Positions 21,131 to 37,479 of a DNA stretch of 64,000 bases are shown piece by piece. This DNA is from Solwaraspora sp. WMMD792 (lineage in GTDB: Bacteria > Actinomycetota > Actinomycetes > Mycobacteriales > Micromonosporaceae). The stretch covers positions 682,001-746,000 of the forward strand of contig NZ_JARUBH010000009.1 of assembly GCF_029626105.1 (NCBI RefSeq). The letters run 5' to 3'. Position 1 is the stretch's first letter. Each line of letters opens with the position of its first letter. Both the position numbers and the translations under genes were made by a program. Under the pieces are notes generated by a model. That model searched no databases and was not told the DNA's origin. It worked only from the letters and a program-made list of their open reading frames with translations.

Positions 21131-21173
21131 GTCAACTCCAATGGTTGACCGGACCTAGACGTTCAACTAATCT
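21131..21173 (+). promoter_or_regulatory. Promoter and candidate operator of the thiopeptide precursor genes
   Basis: A good vegetative promoter is visible: TTGACC at 21145-21150, 17-base spacer, TAATCT at 21168-21173. A perfect inverted repeat GTCAAC-N7-GTTGAC (21131-21136 with 21144-21149) overlaps the -35, and GACGTTCAAC (21158-21167) lies in the spacer. Both are placed to let a regulator block RNA polymerase. Similar elements occur upstream of the second ArsR-like gene at 36800-36872. Confidence 0.7.
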
Positions 21174-21257: not shown

Positions 21258-21446
21258 ATGTTGGCGGAACTGTCGACGTCCTGGGATGCCACCCAGGACT
21301 ACGACCTGGACATCGACGTGGACGGGCTGGACCTCGGGCCACTCACCGTCACCGCGATGCGGGACTCGGTGGCACTGCCCGAGACCGGAGCGTCCTCGGC
21401 CGGCGACGGCGGTCGGGCCTCCTGCTCCTGCTGCTACGTCACCTGA
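21258..21446 (+). CDS. Thiopeptide precursor peptide 1
   Basis: 62 residues with a strong AAGGAGGTG site 5 bases before the ATG. The acidic leader (DLDIDVDGLDLGPLTVTAMR) and the junction RDSVALPETGAS closely resemble lactazole-type thiopeptide leaders (LSELTVTSLRDTVALPENGAS in LazA). The predicted core after the GA is SSAGDGGRASCSCCYVT: three Cys for thiazoles, several Ser for dehydroalanines, including the first core Ser needed for the pyridine. The Cys-Ser-Cys-Cys block and a C-terminal Tyr-Val-Thr tail differ from peptide 2. First gene of the cluster. Confidence 0.88.
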   Translation: MLAELSTSWDATQDYDLDIDVDGLDLGPLTVTAMRDSVALPETGASSAGDGGRASCSCCYVT

Positions 21447-21526: not shown

Positions 21527-21715
21527 ATGTCCGACGAAATCATCGACGTCGAAGACCTCGAGCTGGACGAGCTGTCGGTCAGCTCCATCCGCGACTCGGC
21601 CGCGCTGCCCGAGACCGGTGCCTCCTCCGGCTCGTCGAGCTGCAGCTCCAGCTCCTGCTGCGGCGCCAGCTCGTGCTGCGCCTCCTGCGCCGAGGTCGAG
21701 CAGTCGGCGCTCTGA
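21527..21715 (+). CDS. Thiopeptide precursor peptide 2
   Basis: 62 residues, ATG at 21527 after GAAAGG. The leader (EIIDVEDLELDELSVSSI) ends with the same RDS-A-ALPETGA junction as peptide 1, so the same enzymes should recognise both. The predicted core is long (about 30 residues) and extremely Ser/Cys rich: six Cys, about a dozen Ser, with SSCC-type clusters, and an unmodifiable acidic tail EVEQSAL. A core with so many contiguous Ser and Cys is unusual. It lies 80 bases after peptide 1 and before a strong hairpin. Confidence 0.88.
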   Translation: MSDEIIDVEDLELDELSVSSIRDSAALPETGASSGSSSCSSSSCCGASSCCASCAEVEQSAL

Positions 21716-21804
21716 CACCACCGACCGCCCCGACCGAGGGCACCACCGGCAGTGTCAGGGATTGCCGGTAGCCGAGGCCGGGCGAATCACGTCAGTTCGA
21801 TCGA

Positions 21805-21833: not shown

Positions 21834-21857
21834 CCGTCACATGCCCAAGGAGTGCTC

Positions 21858-22787
21858 GTGGAAGTCTTCGCCCGTCTCGACAGTGTCACCAAGACGTACG
21901 GCAAGGTGGTCGCGCTCGACGCGGTCTCCCTCGTGGTGCCCGCCGGGGTCACCGCCGTGCTCGGCCCCAACGGTGCCGGCAAGTCCACCATGATCGAAAT
22001 CCTCGCTGGTCTGCGCCGCCCCGGCTCGGGTCGGGTCGAGGTGCTCGGCGGGGACCCCGCCGACGTACGGATCAAGGGCCGCCTCGGCCTCACCCCGCAG
22101 CGCACCGCCCTGCCCTGGCGGCTCACCGTCGCCGAGACCCTCGCCCTGGTCGCCGCCCACTACCCGGACCCGGTGCCCCGCGCCGACCTGGTCGAGCAAC
22201 TCGGCCTCGGCCCGTTCCTGACCAAGCGGTGCGGCAGCCTCTCCGGCGGCCAGCGCCGCCGGGTCGCCCTGGCCACCGCCCTGGTCGGCCGCCCCGAACT
22301 GCTCTTCCTCGACGAGCCGACCACCGGCCTGGACGCCGACAGCCGCGACGGACTGTGGACGGCGATCGCCGCCGTCGCCGCCGCCGGCAGCGCGGTGCTG
22401 CTCACCACCCACGACATGGCCGAGGCCGAACACCTCGCCGAACAGGTCGTGGTGGTCACCGGCGGGCAGATCGCCCGCACCGGTGCGGTGACCGAGGTGG
22501 TCGCCGAGGTCGGGCTGCACCTGGTCGACATCGAAGTGACCGGCGCGCTGCCGCCGATCGCCGTCTCCGGCCCCGCCGACCGGGTGGAGACCGTCGGCAA
22601 CCGGACCCACATCTACACCGCCGACCCGGACGCCACCGTCCGGGCACTGGTCCGCGCCGAGGTGCCGTTCACCGGAATCCGGGTCGAGCGGGTCGGCCTG
22701 GAGGAAGCGATCCGCACGATCAGCCGGTCCACCGACCCGGGTGCCGTCACCCGGCCCGGGATCCGCGTTGCCGAGAAGGTGGCCTGA
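21858..22787 (+). CDS. ABC transporter ATP-binding protein (thiopeptide export)
   Basis: About 309 residues; GTG 21858 chosen because AAGGAG ends 5 bases upstream. ATPase motifs in order: Walker A GPNGAGKSTMIEIL, Q-loop region GLTPQRTALPWRLTV, signature LSGGQRRRVALATAL, Walker B LLFLDEPTTGLD, H-loop LLTTHDMAEAEHLAEQ. The ~90-residue C-terminal extension is typical of drug/antibiotic exporters of the DrrA/CcmA type. It pairs with the adjacent ABC-2 permease, one base away, and probably exports the mature thiopeptide or gives self-protection. Confidence 0.94.
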   Translation: MEVFARLDSVTKTYGKVVALDAVSLVVPAGVTAVLGPNGAGKSTMIEILAGLRRPGSGRVEVLGGDPADVRIKGRLGLTPQRTALPWRLTVAETLALVAAHYPDPVPRADLVEQLGLGPFLTKRCGSLSGGQRRRVALATALVGRPELLFLDEPTTGLDADSRDGLWTAIAAVAAAGSAVLLTTHDMAEAEHLAEQVVVVTGGQIARTGAVTEVVAEVGLHLVDIEVTGALPPIAVSGPADRVETVGNRTHIYTADPDATVRALVRAEVPFTGIRVERVGLEEAIRTISRSTDPGAVTRPGIRVAEKVA

Positions 22788-22788
22788 C

Positions 22789-23544
22789 ATGCGCTACGTC
22801 CTGCTGCACGCCCGCGCGCACGCCCTCGACACGCTGCGGATGCCCGCCTACTGGGCCCCCGCGCTGGGCTTCCCGCTGGTCTTCTTCCTACTGTTCGGGC
22901 TGGTCAACGCCAACCGCTTCGCTGACCTCGGGCTGGGCAGCGAGTACGCGATCACCCCGTTCCTGCTCTACACCACGCTCAACGTCACGGTCGCCTCGCT
23001 CGCCGCCGGCGTCGCCGCCGACCGGGAGAACCCGTGGGAACAGCGGCTGCGGCTGCTGCCGCTGTCCCCGCTGACCCGGTTCGCCGGCCGGCTGGTCTAC
23101 GTCCTCGGCTTCAACGTGGTCAGCTGGATTCCGCTGCTGGTCGTCGCCGCTTTCACCACCGACCTGCGGCTGCCGCTGGCTGCCTGGCCGGTCTGGCTCG
23201 GCGCGGTGGTGCTCGGCGCCGTCCCGTTCGGCCTGCTCGGCATGGCGATCGGCTACCGGTTCGCCCCGCAGCCGGCGATGATGCTGGCCAACCTGCTGTT
23301 CATGCTGCTGGCGTTCTTCGGTGGGCTGTTCGTGCCGATCGACTTCCTGCCGTCGGCGCTGCACGCCGTGGTGCCGTACGTGCCCACCTACCAGTACCAG
23401 TACTTCGTGCTGGCGCTGATCGACCGGGCCGACCATCTGATCGGGCCGAGCTGGATCGCCTTCCTGCTGCTGGGCTGGACGGCCCTGTTCGCCCTGCTCG
23501 CCCGCGCCGCGTTCCGGCGCGACGAGGGGGTGCGGTACGGATGA
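22789..23544 (+). CDS. ABC-2 type transporter permease
   Basis: 251 residues, ATG one base after the ATPase stop. Six hydrophobic segments can be picked out, starting with AYWAPALGFPLVFFLLFGLV and ending with WIAFLLLGWTALFALLA, with the ABC-2 pattern LLFMLLAFFGGLFVPIDFLP before the last pair. It forms the membrane half of the exporter. The stop overlaps the ATG of the dehydratase gene, so transport and biosynthesis are in one operon. Confidence 0.92.
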   Translation: MRYVLLHARAHALDTLRMPAYWAPALGFPLVFFLLFGLVNANRFADLGLGSEYAITPFLLYTTLNVTVASLAAGVAADRENPWEQRLRLLPLSPLTRFAGRLVYVLGFNVVSWIPLLVVAAFTTDLRLPLAAWPVWLGAVVLGAVPFGLLGMAIGYRFAPQPAMMLANLLFMLLAFFGGLFVPIDFLPSALHAVVPYVPTYQYQYFVLALIDRADHLIGPSWIAFLLLGWTALFALLARAAFRRDEGVRYG

Positions 23545-26264
23545 GCGAGGCCGCCGTCGTCCCGGCCACCGCCGACCGGCGGCCGGCGACCGACCCCACC
23601 CTGGCACCGTACGCGCTGGTCCGGCTGGCCGCGTTGCCGTACCCGCCGACCCCGGACGGTGCCCGCGAGTTCCGTGCCGCGCTGCGCCGGCTGGTCGAAC
23701 TGCGGTCGCGGATCACCGAGCTGGCCCCCCGGCTCGCCGACGCGCTCTACGCCAGCGCCGACGGGCACCCGGCCGACTTCCACCGCAAGGCGGTGCTGCC
23801 GCTGCGCCGCGACGTGCACAACGGACGGCTGCCCCGGCCGGACCGGGTCGCCGAACTCGGCGGCCTGCTCGACCGGGTGCCCGACCTGCCGGCCTGGCTG
23901 GCCGTCATGCGCGAGGCCGCGCAGGTGCGCGCCGAACTCGGTGAGCTGGCCACCGGCGCGCTCGGCGCGGAACGCGCCGCGCTCGCCGAGGTCTGCGCCG
24001 CCGAACCACTGCGCCGCGCGGTCACCCTCACCGGCGCCGACCTGCTTCGCGGGATCGACCGGGCGGCCGCCAGCGGGGCCAACCCGGACAGCCGGGCCCG
24101 CAAGTCCGAACCCAACGCGCTGCGGTACGCGCTGCGGGCCACCGCGAAGACCAGCCCGCTGTCCTGGTTCACCTACGTCGCCTGGGGCAACTGGACCGGG
24201 GCGTCAGAACCGGCCGGCGGTGCGGCACCGGCCGCTGGTGCCGCACCGGCTGACGGCGCCGGGGTCCCAGCCGGTGACGGGGACCCGATGGCCTCGGCCG
24301 GCGGGCAGCCGGTGGCCGTCGCCCAGGCCAACCGGACGCTGCTGGCCCGGCTGCTCGCCGCGGTGATCGCCGACCCCGGGTTGCGGGACACGGTGCCGCA
24401 CCGGCTGGCCGCCGCGATCACCGTCACCGGCGACCAGTTGACGTTCCGTCGGGACCGCCCGGTGCAGGGCGTCGACCGGGTCATCTCGGTGTTGGAGGAG
24501 GAGGTGTCGCTGGCCTGCACCGGACCGCTGCGGCTGCTGCTCGACCGGACCCAGGCCGCCGGGCCGGCCGGCATCACCCCCGGCGACCTGGTCGCCGAAC
24601 TGGCCCGCCGGCTGCCCGGCGGTCCGCCGCGGACCACCGCCGCCGCGACCCGCTACGTCGGGCAGGTGCTCGACGCCGGGCTGCTGCTCGCCGTCGAGCC
24701 CGTCGACCCGCAGGACCCGCAGGCCGTCCGGCACCTCGCCGACTGGCTGGACCGGCACCACCGCGGCGAGCTGGCCGACCTGCTCACCGCGATCGACGAG
24801 CAGACCAGCGGCTTCGGAGCCGTTGCGGCCGGTGACCGGGCCGCCGCCCTGGGCCGGCTGCGCGACACCTGGCGGTCGGCGTACCAGGCGGCGGGGTTGC
24901 CCTGGTACGACGCGCCGGTGCTGGCCGAGGACGTGGCGCTGCGGGAACCGGTCCGGCTGGACCGGCGCTACGGGCGGGCCGCCGCCGACCGGCTGCCCCG
25001 GCTGGCCGGGCTGGTCGAGCTGTTCGACCAGTACCTGCCGCTGCGTCGGCTGGTCCGGGACCGCTTCGTCGCCCGGTACGGCGTCGGTGGACGCTGCGAG
25101 CGCGCCGCCGACTTCTCCACCGAGATGAGCCAGGTGTGGCGGGCGTACAACCTGGTCTCGCCGTCCGGGGTGATCAACCCCGACCCCGAGTTCGCCGACC
25201 TGGTCACCCCGGCGCTGCGGGAGCTGGCCGACACCCGGGCCGGGCTGCTGGCGCGGATCCGGGCGGCGGCGCCGGCCGACGCGGCCGAGTTCACCCTGCC
25301 CGAGGAGATCGTCCGGGACGCCGCCGCCGCGCTGCCCGACTGGGTCAGCGCGCGGCCCGCCTCGTACGCGTTCTTCGTCCAGCCGGCCCGCCGCGACCGC
25401 GACGACCTGCTGGTGCTCAACCACGTGTACGCCGGCTGGGGCCGGTTCACCAGCCGGTTCCTGGACCTGGTGGCGCCGCAGGCGAAGACGCAGCTGGCTG
25501 CGCAGATCCGGGCCGCCGCCGGGCGGCACGCCCAGGTGGCCCAGTTCCGCCCGGTCACCGGATTCAACGCCAACCTGCACCCGTTGCTGGTCGACCACGA
25601 GGTGGGCGAGGACGGCCGGTGGGCCGACCTGCTCGCCGACCGGGTCGGGCTGCGCCACGACCCGGTCACCGACCAGGTGCGGCTGGTCCGCGACGACACC
25701 GGAGCCGACCTGGACGTGCTCTACCTCGGGTTCCTCGTGCCGTTCGTGATGCCGGACCGGACCGTACCGCTGCACTTCGACCTCAGCAGCGGACTGGTCG
25801 GCCCCGGCCTGCTGGCCCCGACCGGCGAGCTGGCCGGTGCCCGGCACCGGACCCGGCTGCGCTACCACGACCTGGTGCTCAGCCGGCGGTCCTGGACGTT
25901 GCCGACCGACGCCGCCGGGCGGCTGCGCGCCGACCTGGACGGCGACGGCGACGTGCCGTTCGACGCGGTCAGCAGCTGGCGGGCCCGGCTCGGCCTGCCC
26001 GCCGAGGTGTTCGTCGCCGCCGCCGGTGTCGACGTGCGCGGCGGCCCGGACGACTACCAGCGCTACCTGTCGCTGCCCAAACCGCAGTACGTCGACCTGG
26101 ACAACGCTCTGCACCTGCGGAACCTGCCCCGGCTGCTGGGCCGCCACGAGGGACCGGTGCGGATCGAGGAGGCGCTGCCGGTGCCGGGGACCGGCAGCCC
26201 GCACGGGCGGGTCGTCGAGCTGGTCGCCGAAACCTATCGGAAGGGGTGGGGCGGCCATGACTGA
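23541..26264 (+). CDS. Thiopeptide LanB-type dehydratase, glutamylation domain (LazB/TbtB-like)
   Basis: 907 residues. This is the N-terminal half of a split class I lanthipeptide-type dehydratase. It uses glutamyl-tRNA to activate core Ser residues as glutamyl esters, leaving elimination to a partner. The family segment SRARKSEPNALRYALRATAKTS (residues ~193-214) and LSWFTYVAWG are visible. The C-terminal region DLSSGLVGPGLLAPTG and a YLSLPKPQYVDLDN-like stretch match Lant_dehydr_N. No elimination domain is fused. A Gly/Ala/Pro-rich insertion occurs near residues 222-255. Overlaps the next gene by 8 bases. Confidence 0.92.
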   Translation: MSEAAVVPATADRRPATDPTLAPYALVRLAALPYPPTPDGAREFRAALRRLVELRSRITELAPRLADALYASADGHPADFHRKAVLPLRRDVHNGRLPRPDRVAELGGLLDRVPDLPAWLAVMREAAQVRAELGELATGALGAERAALAEVCAAEPLRRAVTLTGADLLRGIDRAAASGANPDSRARKSEPNALRYALRATAKTSPLSWFTYVAWGNWTGASEPAGGAAPAAGAAPADGAGVPAGDGDPMASAGGQPVAVAQANRTLLARLLAAVIADPGLRDTVPHRLAAAITVTGDQLTFRRDRPVQGVDRVISVLEEEVSLACTGPLRLLLDRTQAAGPAGITPGDLVAELARRLPGGPPRTTAAATRYVGQVLDAGLLLAVEPVDPQDPQAVRHLADWLDRHHRGELADLLTAIDEQTSGFGAVAAGDRAAALGRLRDTWRSAYQAAGLPWYDAPVLAEDVALREPVRLDRRYGRAAADRLPRLAGLVELFDQYLPLRRLVRDRFVARYGVGGRCERAADFSTEMSQVWRAYNLVSPSGVINPDPEFADLVTPALRELADTRAGLLARIRAAAPADAAEFTLPEEIVRDAAAALPDWVSARPASYAFFVQPARRDRDDLLVLNHVYAGWGRFTSRFLDLVAPQAKTQLAAQIRAAAGRHAQVAQFRPVTGFNANLHPLLVDHEVGEDGRWADLLADRVGLRHDPVTDQVRLVRDDTGADLDVLYLGFLVPFVMPDRTVPLHFDLSSGLVGPGLLAPTGELAGARHRTRLRYHDLVLSRRSWTLPTDAAGRLRADLDGDGDVPFDAVSSWRARLGLPAEVFVAAAGVDVRGGPDDYQRYLSLPKPQYVDLDNALHLRNLPRLLGRHEGPVRIEEALPVPGTGSPHGRVVELVAETYRKGWGGHD

Positions 26265-27450: not shown

Positions 27451-29459
27451 TGAGCCCGCGACCCTCGACCGCCGAAGCCGGTCCTGTCGTGACCGTTCCT
27501 GCCGAAGCCGGTCCCGCTGCGCCGTCGGCGGCGGAGATCGTCGTGCGGCTGCGGCCGGTGGTGTTCGCCACCCCGACCGCCACCGGGGTGCACGTGCGCG
27601 GCTGGTCGTCGAGCTTCACCGTCAGCGGCGGCGCCGGGGTGTGGAAGGTGTGGCAGGTCCTCGCCCGGCACCTGGCCGGTGGGCTGACCCCGCAGCGGCT
27701 GGCGCAGCCGGCCGGGCGGCCCGAGGTGGACCGGGTCATCCGACTGCTCCTCGACCAGCTGCGGGAACACGACATGCTGGTCGAGGTGCCGGCCGGCTGG
27801 GGCGACCGGGAGGAACCGGATCTGCCGCCGGCCGACCTGGCCCGCTGGCTGGAGTCGGTGGCCGCCGACCCGGCGGCGGCTTGGCAGCGGCTGCGGTCGA
27901 CCACGGTCACCGTCGCCGGCACCGGTCCGGTGGCGACGTCGGCGGCCCGCACGCTGACCGGCGCCGGCCTGGCCGTCGACCCGGTCGGCGGCACCGCTTT
28001 GGACACCGTGGTACGGGCCGGCGAGGCGGCGGTCGCGGCCCGCTGCCTGCCGGAGATCGGGTACGTGACCCCGGTGGCCACGCCGGACCAGGCGCTGGCC
28101 CACGGCGCGGCGGTCGCGGCCCGACTGTCCCGCGCGCCCGGCTCGGCGCTTGCGGATGCGCCCGGTCCGGTCCGGGCCGAGGCGGCCGGCCCGGCGCCTG
28201 CGGATGCGTCGGTGACACCGGCGCTGGCCGCGCTGATCGGGGCCGCCGCGGCGCACCGCATCGTCTGTGCCGTCGCCGGTCTGCCCGACCCGGCCGAGGA
28301 GGCGGCCACCCTGCCCGGTGGCGAACCGGCCGCCCCCGGGCCGTACTACCCGTCGGTCCTGGTCGCCCGGCTCGACCCGGTCCGGGCCACGTACCACCCG
28401 TGGCTGCCGGCGGCCCGGGTGCCGCTGCCCGGTGCGCCGTCCGACATCGACGCGGTCGGGCTGCGGCTGGAAGCGTTGAGCGATCCGGAGCTCGGCGTAC
28501 TGCCGCCTGCGGTCCCCGGCGACCTGCCGCAACTGCCGGCGATGCTGGCCCTGGCCGGCCCGGCGCTGGGTGTCGCGGCCACCGCCGACGCCGCCCGGGT
28601 CGACGCCACCCTGCGGTACGCCGAGACCGTCCTCGGTCTCGGCGCACCGCGCGGCGACGGCGATGCGCGGGACGCCGGTGCCGAGGACGGTGCTGGGTCA
28701 GCGGCCAGCTGGACGGAGACGGCCGCGATCGGCGTCGACGCCCGGCACGCCAGCGGGGCGGCGCTGCGCCGGCTGGTGCACGCCGTGCACAGCCGGCTCG
28801 ACACCGACCCGGTGCCGGAGGCCGAGTGGGCCGGCGAACCGGCGGCGCGCCGCTGGTGGAAGGCGCTCACCCTGCGGTTCGCCGTACCGGCGCGGGTGGT
28901 GGCCCGCCGATTGCCGGCCGGCGCGGTACACGCCGAGATCGTCACCGACGCCGGGCCGCTGGCCTGGGCGGTGGAGGCCACCGCCGCCGACGCGGTGGCG
29001 ATGGCGGCGCTGGCCGCCACCGGCGTCGCCCAGGCCCGGGCCGCCGGCGTCGAGGTGCCGGCCGGGCCGGCGAGCCTGACCGGCGCGGCGCCGACCTGGC
29101 GGCCGGCCGACCAGCACCTGGCACCGTGGACGGACGACAGCTGGTACTGGCCGGCCGGGGTGATCGACAACGAGGAGCGGTTGCAGACGGCGCTGCGGGC
29201 CGCGCTCACCGCCGACGGCGCGACCCTGACCGTACGACCGGTGGTGCCGGTCACCGCCGACACCGGTCCCGCCGATGCGGGTCACGACGCCGACCTCGAC
29301 GCCGACTCGGTCGTCCACGCGCTGGCCGTCACCGGCTTCGCGTCGCAGGGCTTTCGGTGGACGGTGGCTGCCACCGGCACCGCCGTGGACGTCACCGATG
29401 CCACCGATGTCACCGGGACCACTGTGGGCACCACCGCCACCGCGAGCCGAGGAGCCTAA
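27450..29459 (+). CDS. RRE-containing Ocin-ThiF-like partner of the YcaO cyclodehydratase (LazD/TbtF-like)
   Basis: 669 residues; ATG 27450 overlaps the previous stop and follows AGGAGG. The N-terminal ~110 residues (VVRLRPVVFATPTATGVHVRGW, then WKVWQVLARHLAGG) resemble the winged-helix RiPP recognition element that binds leader peptides. The middle has a degenerate ThiF/E1 Rossmann segment (TTVTVAGTGPVATSAARTL) and ASVTPALAALIGAAAAHRIV. The rest is Ala-rich and poorly conserved. In lactazole-type clusters this protein delivers the precursor to the YcaO enzyme. Position directly before the YcaO gene supports the role. Confidence 0.85.
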   Translation: MSPRPSTAEAGPVVTVPAEAGPAAPSAAEIVVRLRPVVFATPTATGVHVRGWSSSFTVSGGAGVWKVWQVLARHLAGGLTPQRLAQPAGRPEVDRVIRLLLDQLREHDMLVEVPAGWGDREEPDLPPADLARWLESVAADPAAAWQRLRSTTVTVAGTGPVATSAARTLTGAGLAVDPVGGTALDTVVRAGEAAVAARCLPEIGYVTPVATPDQALAHGAAVAARLSRAPGSALADAPGPVRAEAAGPAPADASVTPALAALIGAAAAHRIVCAVAGLPDPAEEAATLPGGEPAAPGPYYPSVLVARLDPVRATYHPWLPAARVPLPGAPSDIDAVGLRLEALSDPELGVLPPAVPGDLPQLPAMLALAGPALGVAATADAARVDATLRYAETVLGLGAPRGDGDARDAGAEDGAGSAASWTETAAIGVDARHASGAALRRLVHAVHSRLDTDPVPEAEWAGEPAARRWWKALTLRFAVPARVVARRLPAGAVHAEIVTDAGPLAWAVEATAADAVAMAALAATGVAQARAAGVEVPAGPASLTGAAPTWRPADQHLAPWTDDSWYWPAGVIDNEERLQTALRAALTADGATLTVRPVVPVTADTGPADAGHDADLDADSVVHALAVTGFASQGFRWTVAATGTAVDVTDATDVTGTTVGTTATASRGA

Positions 29460-29461
29460 CC

Positions 29462-31447
29462 ATGTCGACCCGTACCGTTGCGACCCCGACCGACGATCTC
29501 GCGGCGGCGCTGGCCGCCGCCGGTCACCCGGCCGTCCCGGTGCTGGACGCGGTGGCGGCGCTGGACGCCGCGACGGCGCTGGACGCGGTGGCGGCGCTGG
29601 ACGCCGAGACGGTGCCAGGCGGCACCAGCGGTCGGACCGCGGTCGTCCTGCTTGACCACTGGACCCCGGCACTTGCCGCGCAGCTGAGCCGCCGGGCCTG
29701 GGAGACCGCCGCGACGGTCGTCCCGGTCCGCCTCGACGGCGGCCTGGTGCTGGTCGGCCCGGTGCTGCGGCCGAGAGCCGGCACCTGCCTGGCCTGCGCC
29801 GAGCAGGCCCGGCTGCGGGTGTTCGGGCCGGGCGTGCCGAGCCGGGACCCGCAGCTGCGGCAGGGCGGCGTCATCCCGCCGAGCCTGCTGCCGATGGTGG
29901 CCGGCGCGGTCGGCGACGCGCTGACCGACCCGGGCCGGTTGGACGCGACGGTAGTGGCGATCCGCACTGACCACGCCACCGTCAGCAGCCACCGGGTCCG
30001 GCCCCGCCGGCAGGGCTGCCGGATCTGCCGGCCGGTGCCGTTGGACACCCCACACGGTGCCGAGGTGCCGCTGACCGCCGCGCCGACCAGCGACCCGTAC
30101 TCGCTGCGCGGCGACAACCCACGGACCAGCCGGGCCGCGTTGCGCGCCGAACTGTTCGACTGGCGGCACGGGCCGGTCGCCCACATGATCCGTACCGAAC
30201 GGTCGCCGATGGCGCTGAGCACCAGCGAACTGTCCAGCGACACGGCGGTCCGCGAGGCCGGCTACGGCCGGGCGCGCAACTTCGCTGAGTCGGAGCGGAT
30301 CGCCCTGTTCGAGGCGGTCGAGCGGGCCACCGGGATGCGGCCGCACCGGCGGCGTACCGCCGTCGAAGCGGCCTTCGCCGACCTCGGCCCGGACCGGGCG
30401 GTCGACCCGGCCCGGCTCGGCCTGCACGACCCGGCGCACTACGACCACCCGGCGTTCCGGATGGTGCCGTACACACCGCAGACCCGGGTGCGCTGGGTGC
30501 ACGGCTGGTCACTGGACCGTCGCCGCCCGGTGCTGGTGCCCGAGCACGTCGCCTACTGGGGGCTGCACCGCAGCGACGGCCCCCGGTTCCTCTATGAGAG
30601 CTCGAACGGCTGCGGGCTGGGCAACAGCGCCGTCGAAGCCGCGCTGTACGGCATGTACGAGGTCGCCGAACGGGACGCGTTCCTGATGGCCTGGTATGCG
30701 CGGACCCCGCTGCGGCCGGTCGCCGTACCCGACGACGACCCGGTGCTGCCGCACCTGGTCGACCGGCTCGACACGGTCGGCTACGACCTGCTGTTCTTCG
30801 ACGCCACCAACGACCTCGGGGTGCCGACCGTGCTGGCCCTGGTGCTGCACCGCGACCCGACCAGCGGCGCCCCGCAGGCGTTCTTCGCCGCCGGCGCCCA
30901 CCCGGACCCCCGGTCGGCGCTGCGGTCGGCGGCGGCCGAGGCGGTGGTCGACGTGTTCAGTCTGCCCGAGGTGTCCCGCAACAAACCCGGCCATCTGGAC
31001 TCGGACCGGCTGCAGGCGATGTTCGACGACCCCCGGCTGGTCACCGGCCTGGAGGAGCACGTCGCGGTGAACACCCTGCCGCAGGCCCGACAGCGGTACG
31101 AGTTCCTGCTCACCGGCGACGCGCCGGCGCACTGGCGGGACGTGTGGCCGGATCGACCGGCCCCGGTGACCGACCTCGCGGTGCTGCTCGGCGAGACCGT
31201 CGAGCGGTGGGCGGCACACGGCCTGGAGACGATCGTGGTGGACCAGACCGACCCGGCGACCCGGGACCGGCTGGGACTGCACTCGGCGAAGGTGATCGTC
31301 CCCGGCACGTTGCCGATGACGTTCGGCCACGTGCACCACCGCACCCGGGGCCTGGACCGGCTGCTGCGGGTCCCGGCCCAGCTGGGCCGGCTGCCGTCCG
31401 CACTTGACTACTCCGACCTGCCCCTCTACCCGCACCCGTTCCCGTGA
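29462..31447 (+). CDS. YcaO azoline-forming cyclodehydratase with E1-like N-terminus (LazE/TbtG-like)
   Basis: 661 residues. It converts core Cys (and possibly Ser) to thiazolines using ATP. Residues ~100-200 are the remnant E1-like clamp with a likely zinc site of two CxxC pairs (CLAC and CRIC). The YcaO domain follows with NFAESERIALFEAVERATG, ESSNGCGLGNSAVEAALYGM and YEVAERDAFLMAWY, the ATP/Mg-binding Glu motifs of YcaO. It ends in a proline-rich LYPHPFP, like the PxPxP tails that place catalytic residues. The N-terminus contains an Ala-rich imperfect repeat (LDAVAALDAATALDAVAALD). Confidence 0.93.
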   Translation: MSTRTVATPTDDLAAALAAAGHPAVPVLDAVAALDAATALDAVAALDAETVPGGTSGRTAVVLLDHWTPALAAQLSRRAWETAATVVPVRLDGGLVLVGPVLRPRAGTCLACAEQARLRVFGPGVPSRDPQLRQGGVIPPSLLPMVAGAVGDALTDPGRLDATVVAIRTDHATVSSHRVRPRRQGCRICRPVPLDTPHGAEVPLTAAPTSDPYSLRGDNPRTSRAALRAELFDWRHGPVAHMIRTERSPMALSTSELSSDTAVREAGYGRARNFAESERIALFEAVERATGMRPHRRRTAVEAAFADLGPDRAVDPARLGLHDPAHYDHPAFRMVPYTPQTRVRWVHGWSLDRRRPVLVPEHVAYWGLHRSDGPRFLYESSNGCGLGNSAVEAALYGMYEVAERDAFLMAWYARTPLRPVAVPDDDPVLPHLVDRLDTVGYDLLFFDATNDLGVPTVLALVLHRDPTSGAPQAFFAAGAHPDPRSALRSAAAEAVVDVFSLPEVSRNKPGHLDSDRLQAMFDDPRLVTGLEEHVAVNTLPQARQRYEFLLTGDAPAHWRDVWPDRPAPVTDLAVLLGETVERWAAHGLETIVVDQTDPATRDRLGLHSAKVIVPGTLPMTFGHVHHRTRGLDRLLRVPAQLGRLPSALDYSDLPLYPHPFP

Positions 31448-31455
31448 GGTCGGCC

Positions 31456-32661
31456 ATGTCGTCAAGCCAGTTCGCCGCGACGCTCGCGGAGGTGTACGCG
31501 CACGGCCCCGGCAAGGACGTCCGGCCCGCGTCGGCGCCGCCGTACCGTCGCCGGCCCACCGGTCCGGCCGTGCCGTTCGCCGAGCTGGCAGCGGTCGCCG
31601 GACCGACCGGTGCCCGGCTGGTCCGGACGCTCGGTACGGCGCTGGCGCCGCGCCGGTTCGAGCCGTGGAACGGCTTCAACGAGCACCGGGCGTACCCGTC
31701 GCCCCGGGCGGCGCACCTGGTCGACGTGCTGCTGCGGCGAGACGGTGCCGACTGGCTGGTCGATCCGGTCCGCGAACTGCTGTATCCGGCGTCCGCTGAG
31801 TCGCCCGTCGCAGCGCCGGACGGGCCGGTCGAGCTGGTGCTGCGGGAGCAGCCGACGCGGATGCCGGCCGGCTACGGCCGGCTCGCCGACGCGCTGGCCG
31901 CGCTGGAGGCCGGTCACGTCGCCGGCGCGCTCGCCGAGGCCGCCGCCGGCCACGGACTGCGGTACGCCGTCACCACTGCCACCACCACCGGCGGGCCATG
32001 GCTCACCGTCACGCTTGGACCGTCGACCGCCCCCACCTGGTCACGGCACCGGCTGCGGGCGGTACGCAGCTCCGGGCTGAGCCCACGCGGGTTCGGCGCG
32101 GACCCCCGGCCGCTGCCGGCGGAGGCGTTCGAGCGGCTGGTCGCCGCCGCGTACCGACCGCCGGCCGGGTCACCGGTGACCGGGGTGCGCCTGCGGCACA
32201 CCCTCGCGGTCGGCAACGTCGCCGGCCGGGCGGCCGGCTGGTACCACCTCGACCCGGCCGCGACCGGGCGACCCGGGGCTGCTGCGCCGCAGCCGACCCG
32301 GCCGGGCGACGCGACCGGGCAGGTGCAGCGGGCGTACAGCTATCCGCGTACCGAGGTCGACGTCGCCGGCATGCCGCTGGCCTGGCTGGTCAGCGCCGAC
32401 GTGCCGGCCGCCGTCCGCACCGGCGGCCCGGCGGCGTACCGACGGCTGCTGCACGCGGCCGGTGCCGCCGCCCAGCACGTCGGCACCGCCGCCGCCGAGG
32501 TCGGGCTGTTCTGCCGGCCGGTACGCGCGGTGCGGGAGGCCGCCGCCGAGGCGGCCGCCGGTCTGCCCGCCGGGCACGACCTGATCTACCTGTTGTTGAT
32601 CGGCCGGTCACGGGTGCGTGACTTCGCCTACGACCTGAGCAACCCGGAGGTGTCGCCGTGA
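31456..32661 (+). CDS. Stand-alone nitroreductase-like protein of the thiopeptide cluster
   Basis: 401 residues; ATG 31456 has GTGAGG upstream. The C-terminal half (YSYPRTEVDVAGMPLAWLVSADV, HVGTAAAEVGLFCRPVRAV, HDLIYLLLIGRSR) fits the SagB/McbC nitroreductase fold used for FMN-dependent azoline oxidation, and the N-terminal SPRAAHLVDVLLR matches the other half of a degenerate double domain. Several positions expected to bind FMN are not obvious, so it may be a partner subunit rather than an enzyme. The azoline dehydrogenase activity expected for thiazole formation is already present as the fused domain in the next gene. Confidence 0.72.
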   Translation: MSSSQFAATLAEVYAHGPGKDVRPASAPPYRRRPTGPAVPFAELAAVAGPTGARLVRTLGTALAPRRFEPWNGFNEHRAYPSPRAAHLVDVLLRRDGADWLVDPVRELLYPASAESPVAAPDGPVELVLREQPTRMPAGYGRLADALAALEAGHVAGALAEAAAGHGLRYAVTTATTTGGPWLTVTLGPSTAPTWSRHRLRAVRSSGLSPRGFGADPRPLPAEAFERLVAAAYRPPAGSPVTGVRLRHTLAVGNVAGRAAGWYHLDPAATGRPGAAAPQPTRPGDATGQVQRAYSYPRTEVDVAGMPLAWLVSADVPAAVRTGGPAAYRRLLHAAGAAAQHVGTAAAEVGLFCRPVRAVREAAAEAAAGLPAGHDLIYLLLIGRSRVRDFAYDLSNPEVSP

Positions 32662-34442
32662 CCGCACCGACCATCACCGTCACCACCACCCGCACCTGGG
32701 TGGGTCTGCACTGTTTCGCCTACTGGTCGCCGGCCGACCTGGACACCTTCCTGGCGGTGACCGTGGCGCCGCTGCTGGCCCGGCTGCGCGCCGACGGCGC
32801 GATCGCCGACTGGTTCTACATCCGCTACTGGGAGGGCGGGCCGCATCTGCGGATCCGAGTTCGGGACCCGCTGCCGGGCATCGGTGACCGGTTACGGGCG
32901 GAGCTGGCCGAACTCGCCGGCCAGGCACCGTACGAGGTGTTCACCATGGACAGTGGAAGCTACTACCGGCGGCTGGGCGGCAGCGCCGCCCGGTCGGCAG
33001 CCGGCTGGCACGACCACGGCGACGTCCGGGAGATCCCGTACCGGCCGGAGACCGCCCGGTACGGCGGACCGCAGGCGCTGCCGGTCGCCGAGGAGGTCTT
33101 CTGCCGGTCCAGCGAGATCGCCGCCCGGATCGTCGGCGCGGTCCCGCCCGGCCCGGCCCGGTTGTCCGTCGCCGCCGAGCTGGCCACCGCGACCGCCGCC
33201 GCGTTGGGCCTGGACGAGTTGGGTGCGGCCCGGTGGCTGCGCGGCCACGCCGCCGGTTGGCGGTGGCAGAACGAGGTGGCGATGCTGCCGGCCGCGGCGG
33301 TGCAGGGGCAGGCGGCCCGGGTGCTGGCCAGCCAGGGCGCCGCGCTGCGCCGCCGGTGGGACCGGACGGTGGCCCGGGTCGGCGCGCAGGGTACCGACGC
33401 CGCCGACCTGGCGGGGGATCGGTCGCCGGCCGGGTACTGGGCGCAGGTCGTCCGGGCCGCCCGCGACGCGTTGGAGGGGCCGGCCGCCGCCGGCCCGGCC
33501 GACCAGCGGTGGCGCTGGGTGTGGGGCTCCCAGCTGCACATGCTGTTCAACCGGCTGGGCATCCTGCCGGACGAGGAGCGGTCGGTGTGCTGGCTGGTCG
33601 CCGGGACGGCGCTGGCGCCGGGCGGGCCGACGGACTTCTTCGCCGACGGGGCGGCGGCCGCCGACCGCCGCTACCACGAGGCGAGCAAGTTTCTGCCGGG
33701 GATGTTGCAGACGCAGAGGCCGCGCGAGGCCGTCTCGGAACGGAGCGGGACCCCGTTCCGGTTCGGCGGCCGGCCGGTTCCTCTGCCCGCCGGGGACCCG
33801 CCGCGTGCCGCGCTCGCTGATGTGCTGCGCCGGCGGGTCTCCGGTCGGGGGCGGCTGACCGGGCCGGTCACCGCCGAGCAGCTGGGCACCCTGGTGTGGA
33901 GCGCGCACGGGGTGACCCATCGCAGCCAGGTGCCGCTGCCCAACGGGGAACTGTACGACTACGCCCACCGCCCGTACCCGAGCGCCGGCGCGGCGTACGC
34001 GGCGCGGATGCGGCTGATCGTGCGGGACGTCGACGGCGTCGCCCCCGGCGCGTACCACGTCGACGACCTCGACCGGCAGTTGTGGCGGCTCGGGCCGGCC
34101 CCGTCGGTGCCGGAGCTGGAGGCGTCGTCGATGTGGTTCGGGGCGGACGCCCTCGACGTCGGCGGGATCGAACTGGCCGAGGTGCCGGCGCTGCTGGGGC
34201 TCTACGTGCAGCTGGGTGAACTGCGGGAACGCTACGGGATGCGGGCGCTGCGGTTCGCGGTGGCGGAGGCGGGTCACCTGGCGCAGGCGCTGTCGATGGT
34301 GGCGGCGGCGAGCGGGCTGGCGCTCGGCATGATCGGCGGCTTCTACGACGACGTCGCCCACGAACTGCTCGGCCTGGACGGCATCGACGACGTGTTGGTC
34401 TACCTGCTGCCGGTCGGCCGTCTCCCGGGAGGTGCGCGGTGA
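32658..34442 (+). CDS. Elimination domain fused to azoline dehydrogenase (LazF-like)
   Basis: 594 residues, GTG overlapping the previous stop. Residues ~1-340 are the SpaB_C/thiopeptide elimination domain (GLHCFAYWSPADLD, ADWFYIRYWEGGPHLRIRV, QLHMLFNRLGI), which removes glutamate from glutamylated Ser to give dehydroalanine. Residues ~375-590 are a SagB-type nitroreductase (LADVLRRRVSGRGRLTGPVTAEQLGTLVW shortened here: RRRVSGRGRL; then YPSAGAAYAARMRLIVRDV and GMIGGFYDD) that oxidises thiazolines to thiazoles with FMN. This fusion is diagnostic of lactazole-type clusters. It overlaps the ArsR gene downstream. Confidence 0.9.
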   Translation: MTAPTITVTTTRTWVGLHCFAYWSPADLDTFLAVTVAPLLARLRADGAIADWFYIRYWEGGPHLRIRVRDPLPGIGDRLRAELAELAGQAPYEVFTMDSGSYYRRLGGSAARSAAGWHDHGDVREIPYRPETARYGGPQALPVAEEVFCRSSEIAARIVGAVPPGPARLSVAAELATATAAALGLDELGAARWLRGHAAGWRWQNEVAMLPAAAVQGQAARVLASQGAALRRRWDRTVARVGAQGTDAADLAGDRSPAGYWAQVVRAARDALEGPAAAGPADQRWRWVWGSQLHMLFNRLGILPDEERSVCWLVAGTALAPGGPTDFFADGAAAADRRYHEASKFLPGMLQTQRPREAVSERSGTPFRFGGRPVPLPAGDPPRAALADVLRRRVSGRGRLTGPVTAEQLGTLVWSAHGVTHRSQVPLPNGELYDYAHRPYPSAGAAYAARMRLIVRDVDGVAPGAYHVDDLDRQLWRLGPAPSVPELEASSMWFGADALDVGGIELAEVPALLGLYVQLGELRERYGMRALRFAVAEAGHLAQALSMVAAASGLALGMIGGFYDDVAHELLGLDGIDDVLVYLLPVGRLPGGAR

Positions 34443-34933
34443 GCCCCCGACCCGCAGACGGTGCCCGGCGTACGGACGGTGCAGCCCCCGACCGTCAGGG
34501 AACGTCGGGGGCTGTGTCCAGTGTGCCACGGCAACCGGGTTCTGCGCGACCGCCCGGCGGTACCGGTCCGCCGACCCCGGCGGTACGGGTGCTCGACGGT
34601 GTCAACCAGCTGCGTGCCGTCGCCGATCCGATCCGGCTGCGGGTGCTCGCGGTGCTCACCGCCGAGCCGGACCGTGCGCTGTCCGCCCGCCAACTGGCCC
34701 ACCAGCTGGGCATCACGTTCAGCCTGATGCACTACCACCTGCGGGTGCTGTCCGAGGAGGGGATGATCCGGGTGGTCAACCAGCGGACCGACCAGGGCCG
34801 GGCGGAGCGGTACTTCCAGGCCGCGCAGTTGGCGCTGCGCTGGGACTTCCCACCGGCCGACCGGTCCGGTGACGACGCCGCGTCGGCGGACCGGCCGGGC
34901 GACGACGGGTCAGACGGGAAGCAGGCCCGGTGA
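34439..34933 (+). CDS. ArsR-type winged-helix regulator closing the thiopeptide operon
   Basis: 164 residues if it starts at the GTG overlapping the previous stop; the first ~55 residues are Pro/Gly-rich and unstructured, so a later start is possible. The helix-turn-helix spans LRAVADPIRLRVLAVL to MHYHLRVLSEEGMIRVVNQRT with the recognition helix ITFSLMHYHLRVL. No metal-binding Cys pair is present, so it is not a metal sensor. Similar in its HTH to the regulator at 36886. A regulator co-transcribed with the enzymes fits autoregulation of the cluster. Confidence 0.85.
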   Translation: MSPRPADGARRTDGAAPDRQGTSGAVSSVPRQPGSARPPGGTGPPTPAVRVLDGVNQLRAVADPIRLRVLAVLTAEPDRALSARQLAHQLGITFSLMHYHLRVLSEEGMIRVVNQRTDQGRAERYFQAAQLALRWDFPPADRSGDDAASADRPGDDGSDGKQAR

Positions 34934-34975
34934 GCAGCGGCGGGTCAGACGGGAAGCAGGCCGGATGAGCGGACG
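34906..34975 (+). repeat. 35-bp tandem duplication at converging gene ends
   Basis: The first 22 bases are identical in the two units (34906-34927 and 34941-34962), the rest partly so. It spans the last codons of the ArsR gene and the last codons of the opposite-strand radical SAM gene. Probably a local duplication of the maturase end. Confidence 0.75.
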
Positions 34976-36306
34976 AACAGGTCGATCCGGCCGGCCAGGT
35001 TCTCCTTCATCGGTGGGCACGGTGCGCTGCCCTCCCGCCACAGTTTCGGGCAGGCACCGCCGCACACCGGCAGGATCGGGCAGCCCCGGCAGCCGGTCTC
35101 GCCAGCGCGCAGCCCGGTGTACCAGTCGTCGAACTGGCCGGCCGGCCGCAGCCGGTCGACCGGTGCCTGGTCCACGGTGTCCAGATGCTGTTCGGTGAAG
35201 CCGGGCACCAGCGGCTGTTCGGTGCAGGAGTAGATCCGTCCGTCCGGGGCGATCACCTCGCTGTGCCGGGACACGGCGGTGCACACCACCCGGACCGGGT
35301 GGGTGGGCAGCAGCCGGCAGTGCAGTCCGGCCGCGAGGTAGGCGGCGTACCAGCGCAGTTCGGTCTCGGCGGCCTGCTGCTGGCGCAGCCGTACCTCGCT
35401 GACGTCGTTGCCCCACGAGTGGACCGGTGCCGGGTAGAACCGGATCCGGGGGTCGGCGAGGCCGGCGTCGCGCATCGCCGCGGCGAACTCGTCGGCCCGG
35501 TCGGCGTTGTGCCGGCCGATGTTGGTCCGTACGGTCACCTGCAGTCCGGCCAGCTCCGGATCGGTGAGCACGGTACGCAGCGCGGCGGTGATCCGGTGGT
35601 AGGAGCTCTGTCCACTGTTCAGCGGCCGGGCGGCGTCGTGCACCTCCGCCGGTCCGTCGATGGTGATCTCCATCCGGTCGACCCGGCAGTCCAGGTGCAA
35701 GGTACGCAGCTTGCGGGCGTCGAGCAGGGCGCCGTTGGTGACCAGCATCGCCGAGTAGCCGACCCGGTGCCGGGCCGCGGCGGCCACGAACCGGGCGGAC
35801 AGCGAGCGGAGTACGGCGTACCCCATCAGGGGTTCGCCGCCGAACCACCGCACCACCACGGTGTCGTGTTCGCCGCTGGCCATGGCGTGTTCGACCCGCG
35901 CGGCGATGGCGTCGCGGTGCCGGGTCGGCCGGGTGGCCGGGGTGTCCCGACGGTGCTCCTGCCCGCAGTAGTCGCAGCCCATGTTGCAGTAGCCGGTCGG
36001 CATCAGCACGAACTGCCGGTGCCGGGCACTGTCGGCCGCCTGCGCGCCGGCGTCGATCGTCGCGGCGGTTTCGTCGGTGTCGGCGGGCACCAGCAGGCCG
36101 AGTTCGGCGAGCCGGGCCTGTTCGTCGGCGGGCAGGCCGGCCGGGCCGGGGCCGTCGAGGAGGGTCCGCACGGTGCCGGTGTCGAGCAGGAGGGTACGGG
36201 CCCGTCCGGTGTGGAACACGGCGCGCAGTTGCCGGCCGGTCGGGTGCCGGTAGGTGGCCTGGCTGAACACGAGGTAGCGGCTGAGCACGAGGTCGGACTG
36301 GGCCAT
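34945..36306 (-). CDS. Radical SAM/SPASM peptide maturase
   Basis: 453 residues; ATG 36306 follows GAAAGG. Residues ~1-95 look like a PqqD/RRE-type precursor-binding domain (LVFSQATYRHPTGRQL, TLLLDTGTVRTLLDG). The radical SAM 4Fe-4S motif is Cys107-NMG-Cys111-DY-Cys114 (LMPTGYCNMGCDYCGQEH), with RWFGGEPLMGY. The C-terminus is a SPASM domain with Cys-rich VVCTAV, IYSCTEQ, GCRGCPILPVCGGAC and APCPPM that would bind two auxiliary clusters. Such enzymes install thioether, C-C or cyclophane cross-links in RiPPs. The 63-residue peptide gene lies upstream in the same orientation. Substrate and chemistry are unassigned. Confidence 0.92.
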   Translation of the reverse strand: MAQSDLVLSRYLVFSQATYRHPTGRQLRAVFHTGRARTLLLDTGTVRTLLDGPGPAGLPADEQARLAELGLLVPADTDETAATIDAGAQAADSARHRQFVLMPTGYCNMGCDYCGQEHRRDTPATRPTRHRDAIAARVEHAMASGEHDTVVVRWFGGEPLMGYAVLRSLSARFVAAAARHRVGYSAMLVTNGALLDARKLRTLHLDCRVDRMEITIDGPAEVHDAARPLNSGQSSYHRITAALRTVLTDPELAGLQVTVRTNIGRHNADRADEFAAAMRDAGLADPRIRFYPAPVHSWGNDVSEVRLRQQQAAETELRWYAAYLAAGLHCRLLPTHPVRVVCTAVSRHSEVIAPDGRIYSCTEQPLVPGFTEQHLDTVDQAPVDRLRPAGQFDDWYTGLRAGETGCRGCPILPVCGGACPKLWREGSAPCPPMKENLAGRIDLFVRSSGLLPV

Positions 36307-36357
36307 GAGGAGCCTTTCGGAGGGTCTCGACGAGTGGCTACCGGGGGCTACCGGGGT

Positions 36358-36420
36358 GGTGGACCATGGTGGACCGTGCGGCGGTGGACCATGGTGGACC
36401 GTGTGGCGGTGGACCGTGGG
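36358..36420 (-). repeat. 25-bp tandem repeat in the peptide-maturase gap
   Basis: Two copies of a 25-base unit (36358-36382 and 36383-36407) plus a partial third from 36408, each containing GGTGGACCATGGTGGACC with an internal ACCATGGT palindrome. It lies in the untranslated spacer upstream of the radical SAM gene on the minus strand. Confidence 0.85.
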
Positions 36421-36429
36421 GTGCAACGT

Positions 36430-36463
36430 CACCGGACCCGGAGCGGTCGCTCCGGGTCCGGTG
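36430..36463 (-). terminator. Strong hairpin after the 63-residue peptide gene
   Basis: Perfect 15-bp stem (36430-36444 with 36449-36463, 4-base loop) beginning 17 bases after the peptide stop on the minus strand and about 120 bases before the maturase start. Probably a partial terminator or RNA-stabilising element setting a high precursor to enzyme ratio. Confidence 0.75.
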
Positions 36464-36480
36464 CTGGTGAGAGCTGCGGG

Positions 36481-36672
36481 TCAGCTGAAGGCGCAGGCGA
36501 AGTTGACGCTGGAGCTGTCGTCGCGCCCGCCGGTGCCGTCGGTGGGCAGCTCGAAGACGACCATGCTCTGGCTGGGTGTCTCGTCCGGCTGCTGGGCTTC
36601 TACAGCGGCCTGGGTGGCCGGGGCGGCGATGGCGATCGCGGCGACGACGGCGAAGAAGGGGTTGGTGGGCAC
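36481..36672 (-). CDS. Candidate RiPP precursor peptide for the radical SAM maturase
   Basis: 63 residues from a GTG with an excellent GGAGGT 6 bases upstream. The N-terminal part is hydrophobic (NPFFAVVAAIAIAAPATQAA), unlike typical acidic RiPP leaders. The middle is acidic/polar (EAQQPDETPSQS) and is followed by MVVFELPTDGTGGRDDSSSV and the terminal NFACAFS, with a single Cys at 60 and Phe at 58 and 62. It sits directly upstream of the radical SAM/SPASM gene, separated by a strong hairpin. No known precursor family is recognised. Alternatives: a secreted small protein, or a pinensin- or FxsA-like peptide that I fail to recognise. Confidence 0.75.
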   Translation of the reverse strand: MPTNPFFAVVAAIAIAAPATQAAVEAQQPDETPSQSMVVFELPTDGTGGRDDSSSVNFACAFS

Positions 36673-36799
36673 GGTCGACCTCCGAAAGGGGAGCGGGGGT
36701 GGCGAAGAAAGTGGTGGCGCGGTGGGGTGACGTGGGCAGGTGGGGGTGGTGCCGGCCCGCGTGGTGAGTCGGTGGGATCGGGGGTGATACGATCTTGCT

Positions 36800-36872
36800 G
36801 ACGTTCAAAATAAGCTGAGCGACGGACGGAAGTCAATCGTCGGGGTAGAATCAACCGTGGAACGTTGGTTGA
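36800..36872. promoter_or_regulatory. Divergent promoters and candidate operators, peptide / ArsR
   Basis: For the peptide (minus strand): TTGACT (complement of 36831-36836), 18-base spacer, TATTTT (complement of 36807-36812). For the ArsR gene (plus): TAGAAT at 36846-36851. GACGTTCAA at 36800-36808 overlaps the peptide -10 and is identical to 9 bases of the thiopeptide promoter element at 21158. TCAACC-N10-GGTTGA (36851-36856 with 36867-36872) lies just after the ArsR -10. The layout suggests the ArsR protein controls both directions. Confidence 0.65.
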
Positions 36873-36885
36873 ACGGAGGTCTGCG

Positions 36886-37479
36886 GTGACTGAGCTGATG
36901 GCCAGCCGGGTGATCGAGGACGTGGCTACCCTCAAGGCGCTCGCCGACCCCATCCGGATGCGGGTGCTGGAGCTCGCGATGTCCGAGCCCGAGCGGACCT
37001 GGACCGCCAAGGAGCTGGCGAAGATCGTGGGCGTCGCGCCCACCAAGATCTACTACCACATCAACCAGCTGGAACAGCACCAGCTGCTGCACATCCGGGA
37101 CACCCGGGTGGTCAACGGCATCATCGAGAAGCAGTACGGTGCCGGCCAGCTCAACCTGACCTTCCACCGCCGCTCCGGCGAGGAACCCAGCTCGGTGCAC
37201 GAGGTCGTGGTCACCCTGCTGGACCAGATCAAGGACGAGATCGAGGCCGGACTGAACGCCGGCACCATCTCCGGCAGCAGCGAGGCGCCGGACCCGGTCC
37301 GGATGATGCTCAGCCGGGGGGTCGCCGAGATCCCCGCGGACCGGATCGCCGAGTTCCGTCACGAGCTGCAGGCCCTGATGCGGCGGTTCGAGCAGGCCGG
37401 TGTCGCCCGGGACGGCACCACCACCGGCGGGCACCGGTTCGCGATGCTGGTCGGCATGCACCCGCTCGGGCTGTCCTGA
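36886..37479 (+). CDS. ArsR-like winged-helix regulator divergent from the peptide gene
   Basis: 197 residues; GTG 36886 has ACGGAGGT 5 bases upstream, better than the earlier in-frame start at 36865. The HTH runs from LKALADPIRMRVLELAM through TAKELAKIVGVAPTKIYYHINQLEQHQLLHIRDTRVV (helix-turn-helix with recognition helix KIYYHINQL), followed by a ~110-residue helical ligand/dimer domain (VHEVVVTLLDQIKDEIEAG). This resembles the HTH_20 ArsR/YdfF group without metal-binding cysteines. It is likely the repressor or activator of the divergent RiPP unit, possibly also of the thiopeptide promoter. Confidence 0.88.
   Translation: MTELMASRVIEDVATLKALADPIRMRVLELAMSEPERTWTAKELAKIVGVAPTKIYYHINQLEQHQLLHIRDTRVVNGIIEKQYGAGQLNLTFHRRSGEEPSSVHEVVVTLLDQIKDEIEAGLNAGTISGSSEAPDPVRMMLSRGVAEIPADRIAEFRHELQALMRRFEQAGVARDGTTTGGHRFAMLVGMHPLGLS

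Follow-up and report, generated by a model that had tools for sequence, protein, structure and literature searches.

CteB (PDB 5why, 5wgg), which we take to be the thermocellin maturase, is a thioether-forming enzyme that combines a recognition element (RRE) of ribosomally synthesized and post-translationally modified peptides (RiPPs) with a radical S-adenosylmethionine (SAM) part and a SPASM part. Lactazole-type thiopeptide clusters hold Thiopep_pre precursors together with LanB-type, YcaO and fused Lant_dehydr_C and SagB proteins. In streptosactin (GggA/GggB), a SPASM enzyme forms two small thioether rings, one between Cys25 and Ser28 and the other between Cys31 and Gly34 (available part of PMC8172795). 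StsA, of the aroma-sacti type, works with a discrete RRE, StsC (available part of PMC12710340). The locus described here lies in a stretch of 64,000 nucleotides, called the window, from the 7.4-Mb genome of Solwaraspora sp. WMMD792 (contig NZ_JARUBH010000009.1, positions 682,001 to 746,000). It encodes a 63-residue precursor with an Asn-x-x-Cys (NxxC) end and a radical SAM/SPASM maturase, next to a thiopeptide cluster. The unit is probably tied into the regulon of that cluster, with a Sec-leader NxxC peptide and a thiopeptide under one ArsR control. The features of the unit are as follows.

34945..36306, minus strand: radical SAM/SPASM maturase, 453 residues, ATG at 36306 and stop at 34945 (profiles, alignment, model)
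36430..36463, minus strand: 15-bp GC-rich hairpin in the gap from precursor to maturase, probably an attenuator (folding, z -5.1)
36481..36672, minus strand: precursor peptide gene, 63 residues, GTG start (open reading frame, homologue and motif searches)
36800..36821, plus strand: operator-like element GACGTTCAAAATAAGCTGAGCG at the peptide/ArsR promoter, common to the thiopeptide promoter
36807..36836, minus strand: peptide promoter TTGACT-18-TATTTT (pattern match and promoter scan)
36832..36860, plus strand: second conserved block of the divergent promoter, GTCAATCGTCGG..TAGAATC.. (alignment)
36886..37479, plus strand: ArsR-type (HTH_20) regulator, 197 residues, divergent from the peptide (profiles)

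A preliminary description had proposed a GTG-started 63-codon frame with a good ribosome-binding site upstream of the radical SAM gene, as well as a divergent ArsR-like regulator, and both were confirmed, with GGAGG located 6 nt ahead of the GTG. Its remark that no known precursor family was recognised agrees with profile searches, in which no NCBIfam or Pfam family matched and the aroma-sacti precursor profile NF045560 gave no match at E <= 0.1. The frame was called by a codon model trained on the window (score 23), and is present in six of the seven genomes of the genus, adjoining the maturase each time. The peptide consists of a hydrophobic Sec-like leader at about residues 5-26, a recognition-like FELP motif at 40-43, and the C-terminus N57-F-A-C60-A-F-S. 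The end NFACAFS does contain the sole Cys and two Phe, as had been described, and three more Phe are found elsewhere; the conserved core, however, is Asn-x-x-Cys and not Cys and Phe. The Asn three residues ahead of the Cys, the adjoining thiopeptide cluster and the common promoter element had been overlooked.

The proposed pairing of a RiPP precursor with an RRE/radical SAM/SPASM maturase was supported, the RRE part by a predicted model rather than by a Pfam profile, and the locus is regarded with high confidence as a genuine radical SAM RiPP unit. The maturase carries CNMGCDYC at 107-114, whose CX3CX2C residues C107, C111 and C114 are invariant in 23 aligned homologues, as are seven SPASM cysteines (C342, C361, C406, C409, C415, C419 and C430) in the arrangement C..C, CX2CX5CX3C, C. 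It matches PF04055 at 46.4 bits (cut-off 29.5) and TIGR04085 at 37.6 bits (cut-off 27). Under the RRE fold definition in the available part of PMC12710340, the model has an N-terminal RRE-type fold with strands at 12-20, 26-32 and 37-42 and helices at 43-50, 54-57 and 60-68; a profile search returned no Pfam RRE match. In a fold search whose list is a ranked part of the PDB, CteB was the best full-length match among the entries listed, and a sulfatase-maturing enzyme and the epimerase EpeE were matched besides thioether formers. By sequence, CteB aligns over the radical SAM part at E 1.4e-18, and ChlB scores slightly better (1e-19). CteB is 18% identical and acts on another precursor, and the NxxC core places the likely acceptor before the Cys. 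The best NCBIfam profile is that of the radical SAM/SPASM RiPP maturase family TIGR04463 (E 1.9e-51), of which the enzyme is not a member by that test because it reaches 175.2 bits against a cut-off of 525; it likewise stays below the cut-off of the PapB family NF047865 (70.4 bits versus 340). The aroma-sacti type comes close in another respect, in that the precursor of a Streptomyces homologue has an aroma-sacti leader domain (67 bits, cut-off 30) and an NxxC end, but the window peptide matches neither NF045560 nor NF045559 and its leader is Sec-like.

Maturase homologues were found in 33 of 300 genomes of the family Micromonosporaceae at E <= 1e-30, seven of them weak (30-37% identical), and in 3 of 394 genomes of the class at E <= 1e-60, including that of the window. 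The maturase ATG lies 174 nt downstream of the precursor stop. A longer GTG start at 36432 was rejected, as it adds a repeat-rich stretch and the alignable part starts near 36306; a short tandem-like repeat of GGTGGACCATGGTGGACCGTG was seen by eye at 36361-36420, between hairpin and maturase start. Folding of seven other loci predicted a strong stem in each (z -1.4 to -3.1), with a different sequence in L042, L043 and L044. A terminator scan found none, and the hairpin is therefore termed an attenuator by shape only.

The precursor belongs to a wide NxxC family, as judged from sequence comparison. Genome contigs were scanned for relatives, of which the best 80 of at least 319 were kept. The 106 maturase proteins reduced to 87 non-redundant ones, and dropping six with less than 1.4 kb of upstream sequence left 81 loci (<90% identical, at least 1.4 kb upstream). 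Small frames were accepted if led by a Shine-Dalgarno sequence, 18-110 codons long, ending at most 450 bp upstream (to 40 bp inside) and bearing N-x-x-C in the last 22 residues. Conservation of the peptide beside maturase homologues had been chosen beforehand as a point on which the RiPP claim should stand or fall, and it was borne out: such a frame precedes the maturase in 42 of 81 loci. As controls, the antisense strand gave 1 of 81 and an equally wide stretch lying 0.9-1.35 kb upstream gave 2 of 81; the numbers of candidate frames were 95, 71 and 69, respectively. The frame occurs in 35 of the 45 loci whose maturase is at least 38% identical to that of the window. Leaving out the chance-like matches in L139 and L136 gave a curated set of 42 peptides from 40 loci, selected for NxxC, in which Asn stands three residues ahead of the first Cys in 37. 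The motif Cys is the final residue in 15, and tandem forms such as NVACDSGC and NGVCGNGC exist. In a five-row alignment N57 and C60 alone are invariant in the C-terminal part, together with two Ala of the leader. The precursors are mostly from Actinomycetota, with single or few loci in Planctomycetota (L107), Pseudomonadota (L108, L109) and Cyanobacteriota (L111); in Bacteroidota there is a weak case, L102, and other loci yielded none that was kept. A Cys-Phe cross-link was rejected because Phe is not conserved across the family: it stands two residues ahead of the first Cys in 5 of the 42 curated peptides, and Phe two residues past the Cys is confined to the window's genus and L044.

The unit adjoins a thiopeptide cluster of plus-strand genes from 21258 to 34933 (about 21.2-34.9 kb), whose features are as follows.

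21145..21173, plus strand: promoter of the thiopeptide precursor, TTGACC-17-TAATCT, its spacer containing GACGTTCAA
21158..21199, plus strand: operator-like element GACGTTCAACTAATCTCAAGC of the thiopeptide promoter, inverted half-site GAACGTC at 21193-21199
21258..21446, plus strand: thiopeptide precursor A, core ..GGRASCSCCYVT, PF19409 (profile)
21527..21715, plus strand: thiopeptide precursor B, core SSGSSSCSSSSCCGASSCCASC.., PF19409 (profile)
21858..23544, plus strand: ABC transporter pair, ATPase 21858-22787 and permease 22789-23544
23541..26264, plus strand: LanB-type dehydratase N-terminal protein, 907 residues, PF04738
26257..27450, plus strand: Lant_dehydr_C-type protein, 397 residues, presumably the pyridine synthase by position and size
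27543..29459, plus strand: thiopeptide cluster protein of 638 residues, no Pfam match
29462..31447, plus strand: YcaO cyclodehydratase, 661 residues, PF02624, TIGR03604
31456..32661, plus strand: nitroreductase-family protein, 401 residues
32658..34442, plus strand: fused thiopeptide-type Lant_dehydr_C and SagB dehydrogenase, 594 residues, which we take to be LazF-like
34589..34933, plus strand: small ArsR-type regulator, 114 residues, last after the thiopeptide genes (profiles)

Thiopep_pre precursors, LanB-type, YcaO and thiopep_ocin proteins identify the cluster, which we liken to the lactazole type; it differs in its extra small ArsR gene and in the common element that links it to the radical SAM unit. 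This gene set flanks the unit in nine of nine loci of the window clade, in three genera and two arrangements; outside the clade, L056 has a single protein of a YcaO cluster. A search at E <= 1e-60 for the fused Lant_dehydr_C/SagB gene gave 12 of the 300 family genomes, nine of which have the radical SAM unit. G016, G017 and G088, the other three, have no maturase; fused gene and maturase are both absent from G003, a member of the window's genus. The two ArsR proteins are paralogous (32% identity over 100 residues); L037-L044 and the window carry both genes, and the 20-kb loci of the three thiopeptide-only genomes yielded neither. Precursors A and B differ in core, and type A (..NASCSCCYVT or ..GRASCSCCYVT) was seen in the nine dual genomes examined, while the search pattern used returned type B alone in G016.

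Co-regulation of peptide unit and thiopeptide cluster by the ArsR pair is most likely, judging from an element at both promoters. Two copies of the 9-mer GACGTTCAA lie in the window, one at 36800 and one at 21158 in the thiopeptide precursor promoter, with 0.13 expected, and two occurrences were reached in 1 of 100 shuffles; because 0.13 are expected per 64 kb, the 9-mer alone cannot be unique genome-wide. When a two-form pattern was searched for in the genus, each of the six genomes with units had exactly two sites, G003 had none, and the reversed control gave no match. A looser pattern found two sites each in G000, G110, G118 and G065 and none in 14 other genomes, namely three with the thiopeptide gene only, seven with a maturase and no thiopeptide gene, and four with neither. 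There are nine dual genomes in total, five of which were searched with the first pattern only. Of the two elements in a dual genome, one belongs to the promoter between the peptide and ArsR genes and the other precedes the thiopeptide precursor; in G118 the two are on different contigs. The element adjoins the -10 box in both promoters and was retained while the flanking sequence diverged. Furthermore, a conserved block ACGTTCAAAATAANCTGAGC, with small variations, is found in the divergent promoter of the nine dual loci, and TTGAC[TA]-18-TATTTT occurs in all nine with identical spacing but has no match in six loci of the Actinoplanes/Longispora type. The promoter scanner recovers the peptide promoter in the window (shuffle mean 0.0); a pattern for the second block matched the window at chance level (7 versus 7.25).

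The leader-like half had been called hydrophobic, which holds, and it is best read as a Sec-type signal. The uncharged N-terminal run spans 16-27 residues in ten peptides picked by eye as Sec-type and 5-8 in nine of other types, and seven of the ten have a positive n-region (net +1 to +4), the three of the window's genus being without it. The window peptide has an uncharged hydrophobic run of 16 residues and A-x-A-like sites, with no positive n-region. The leader of the window clade looks Sec-like, and the export route is a prediction. Leaders are diverse across the NxxC family: the single Streptomyces precursor examined with the profile has an aroma-sacti domain, look-alikes are seen in others, and some leaders are very short. 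Besides the window clade, four Pseudonocardiaceae/Actinomadura loci have Sec-like leaders, and both groups fall with the Actinoplanes/Longispora group into one supported clade of 16 rows. A regular expression for the leader motif matched 11 of 16 peptides (shuffles: mean 0.36, maximum 4; the count is post hoc). The remaining five all come from the window clade and show, by eye, a comparable stretch.

Based on these features, a model is proposed in which precursor transcription would start at a sigma-70-like promoter overlapping the divergent ArsR promoter, and the hairpin past the precursor would lower maturase expression relative to the precursor. The N-terminal RRE of the maturase may then bind the leader, probably at the FELP motif, as the fold suggests, and the radical SAM/SPASM part would link Cys60 to Asn57 by a thioether into a four-residue C-terminal ring, as conservation suggests. 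The modified peptide would be exported via Sec and its leader removed by signal peptidase. One or both ArsR proteins may bind the common element at both promoters, so that both peptides would be made together.

Several points weigh against this model. The patterns for the element were drawn up from both kinds of site, and therefore two matches arise partly by construction, the test being uniqueness and absence elsewhere. Six of the nine dual genomes belong to one genus, and the independent cases come to three genera and two gene arrangements only. When the two promoters were compared by plain local alignment, several genomes gave weak matches: 0 to 14 of 200 shuffles scored as high in the forward orientation, the number was 0 to 179 when one promoter was reversed, and the segment that aligned best varied. 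The n-region of the window peptide has no Lys or Arg, which makes its Sec signal weaker than in relatives. A codon-position test within the genus gave no excess of third-position or synonymous change in the precursor; its coding status therefore rests on conserved peptide ends and co-occurrence, not on the ratio of nonsynonymous to synonymous change (dN/dS). The identity of the bond, and the formation of any bond at all, are predictions. Under the stated rule 10 of the 45 close maturases have no NxxC frame, and just 7 of 36 more distant ones have it, two of these chance-like. Seven of the ten close misses, L056 among them, form one separate clade in the tree; L020 and L051 (G066, also L022) have DGGC in place of NxxC, and in L056 an NFNVACCC end lies at a greater distance upstream, with two M16 peptidase genes in between.

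A first alternative is that the peptide serves as a partner of the thiopeptide, as a second bacteriocin, immunity or signal peptide, whose mature form may be an inducer sensed via ArsR. The common element and the paired ArsR genes fit such a role, as does a Sec-type leader, which implies an extracellular peptide; ArsR proteins, however, are cytoplasmic, and no importer is seen in the unit. The partner role is possible but doubtful. An extended reading, in which a Sec-exported Asn-Cys ring peptide of reverse polarity and a thiopeptide form a two-peptide regulon, governed by the ArsR pair through one operator, with the peptide as signal or partner and an NxxC class spanning several phyla, is equally tentative. 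Any biological role assigned to the peptide is a prediction.

A second alternative concerns the chemistry. The simplest reading of the conserved end is a predicted Asn57-Cys60 thioether closing a four-residue C-terminal ring. Sactipeptides are defined by a thioether from the Cys sulfur to an alpha carbon, ranthipeptides by one to a non-alpha carbon. In precursors that end at the motif Cys, any intrachain acceptor must lie upstream; the Asn-Cys ring is preferred because a terminal Cys has no downstream partner and Asn at -3 (Asp in two loci) is the fixed upstream residue, so that this Asn appears to be the best acceptor candidate. In the sactipeptide and ranthipeptide examples of the available part of PMC8172795 the donor Cys precedes the acceptor where positions are given, as in streptosactin by its description there, whereas in the window peptide Asn stands before Cys and the predicted donor would come last. 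This opposite order speaks for another modification of NxxC, such as a Cys thioether to a residue other than Asn, epimerization or a ringless change of the Asn side chain, and so do the several reactions that SPASM and related enzymes run on one scaffold and the sulfatase-maturing enzyme and EpeE among the fold matches. Against it stand the invariance of N57 and C60 alone in the C-terminal part, the replacement of Asn by Asp in two loci, and the Cys that ends both motif and peptide in 15 of 42, leaving no downstream acceptor there; another modification is rather unlikely.

It is unlikely that a stand-alone RiPP unit merely neighbours the thiopeptide cluster, with an element inherited from a duplicated ArsR/promoter module and no joint control. 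Such independence would suit the Actinoplanes and Longispora type loci, where the unit occurs without a thiopeptide, and the three genomes with a thiopeptide gene and no unit, and the ArsR paralogy means that a duplicated module could bring similar operators; but the linkage is kept in three genera and two arrangements, the element stays next to the -10 box in both promoters despite diverged flanks, and the three thiopeptide-only genomes do not have it. The idea that the adjacent YcaO/thiopeptide enzymes modify the peptide was rejected, as that cluster has two Thiopep_pre precursors of its own and NxxC peptides have no fixed Ser/Thr.

Some relatives of the unit show further arrangements. In L056 the precursor (14474-14599, minus strand) is followed by the two M16 peptidase genes, the maturase and an MFS-like transporter, a possible route of leader removal in that branch. 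In L108 (Roseibium) a single frame, located 475-143 bp ahead of the maturase, can be read as two precursor-like segments, both having an Asn followed by a GCDSGC core. The ArsR-peptide-maturase unit of L045, L047, L048 and L050 (Actinoplanes type) adjoins an additional gene module, in L047 comprising a subtilase, a GAF protein, an adenylate cyclase/AAA protein, a weak R2K ATP-grasp match, a LuxR-type protein and a 59-residue peptide with an aroma-sacti-like leader by eye and no NxxC. Homologous clusters of Streptomycetaceae (L068, L070, L076, L080, L087 and L099) encode a 715-740-residue protein, probably of the group of the B12-binding radical SAM protein of L057, and genes of an MFS-type group and of the subtilase, GAF and cyclase groups adjoin their NxxC precursor.

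No description of this system was found in the literature searched, which was open-licence, with most subscription journals outside its scope. The locus presents a case of two unrelated RiPP pathways apparently under one transcriptional switch and, if this is true, deletion of the ArsR genes would be a direct means of activating a silent thiopeptide cluster. The NxxC precursors and their maturases make up an enzyme-substrate family with one sharp prediction, Asn-x-x-Cys with the acceptor ahead of the donor. Many of its precursors end at the Cys predicted to react and their leaders vary widely, and the family is useful for asking how one enzyme family copes with unlike leaders.
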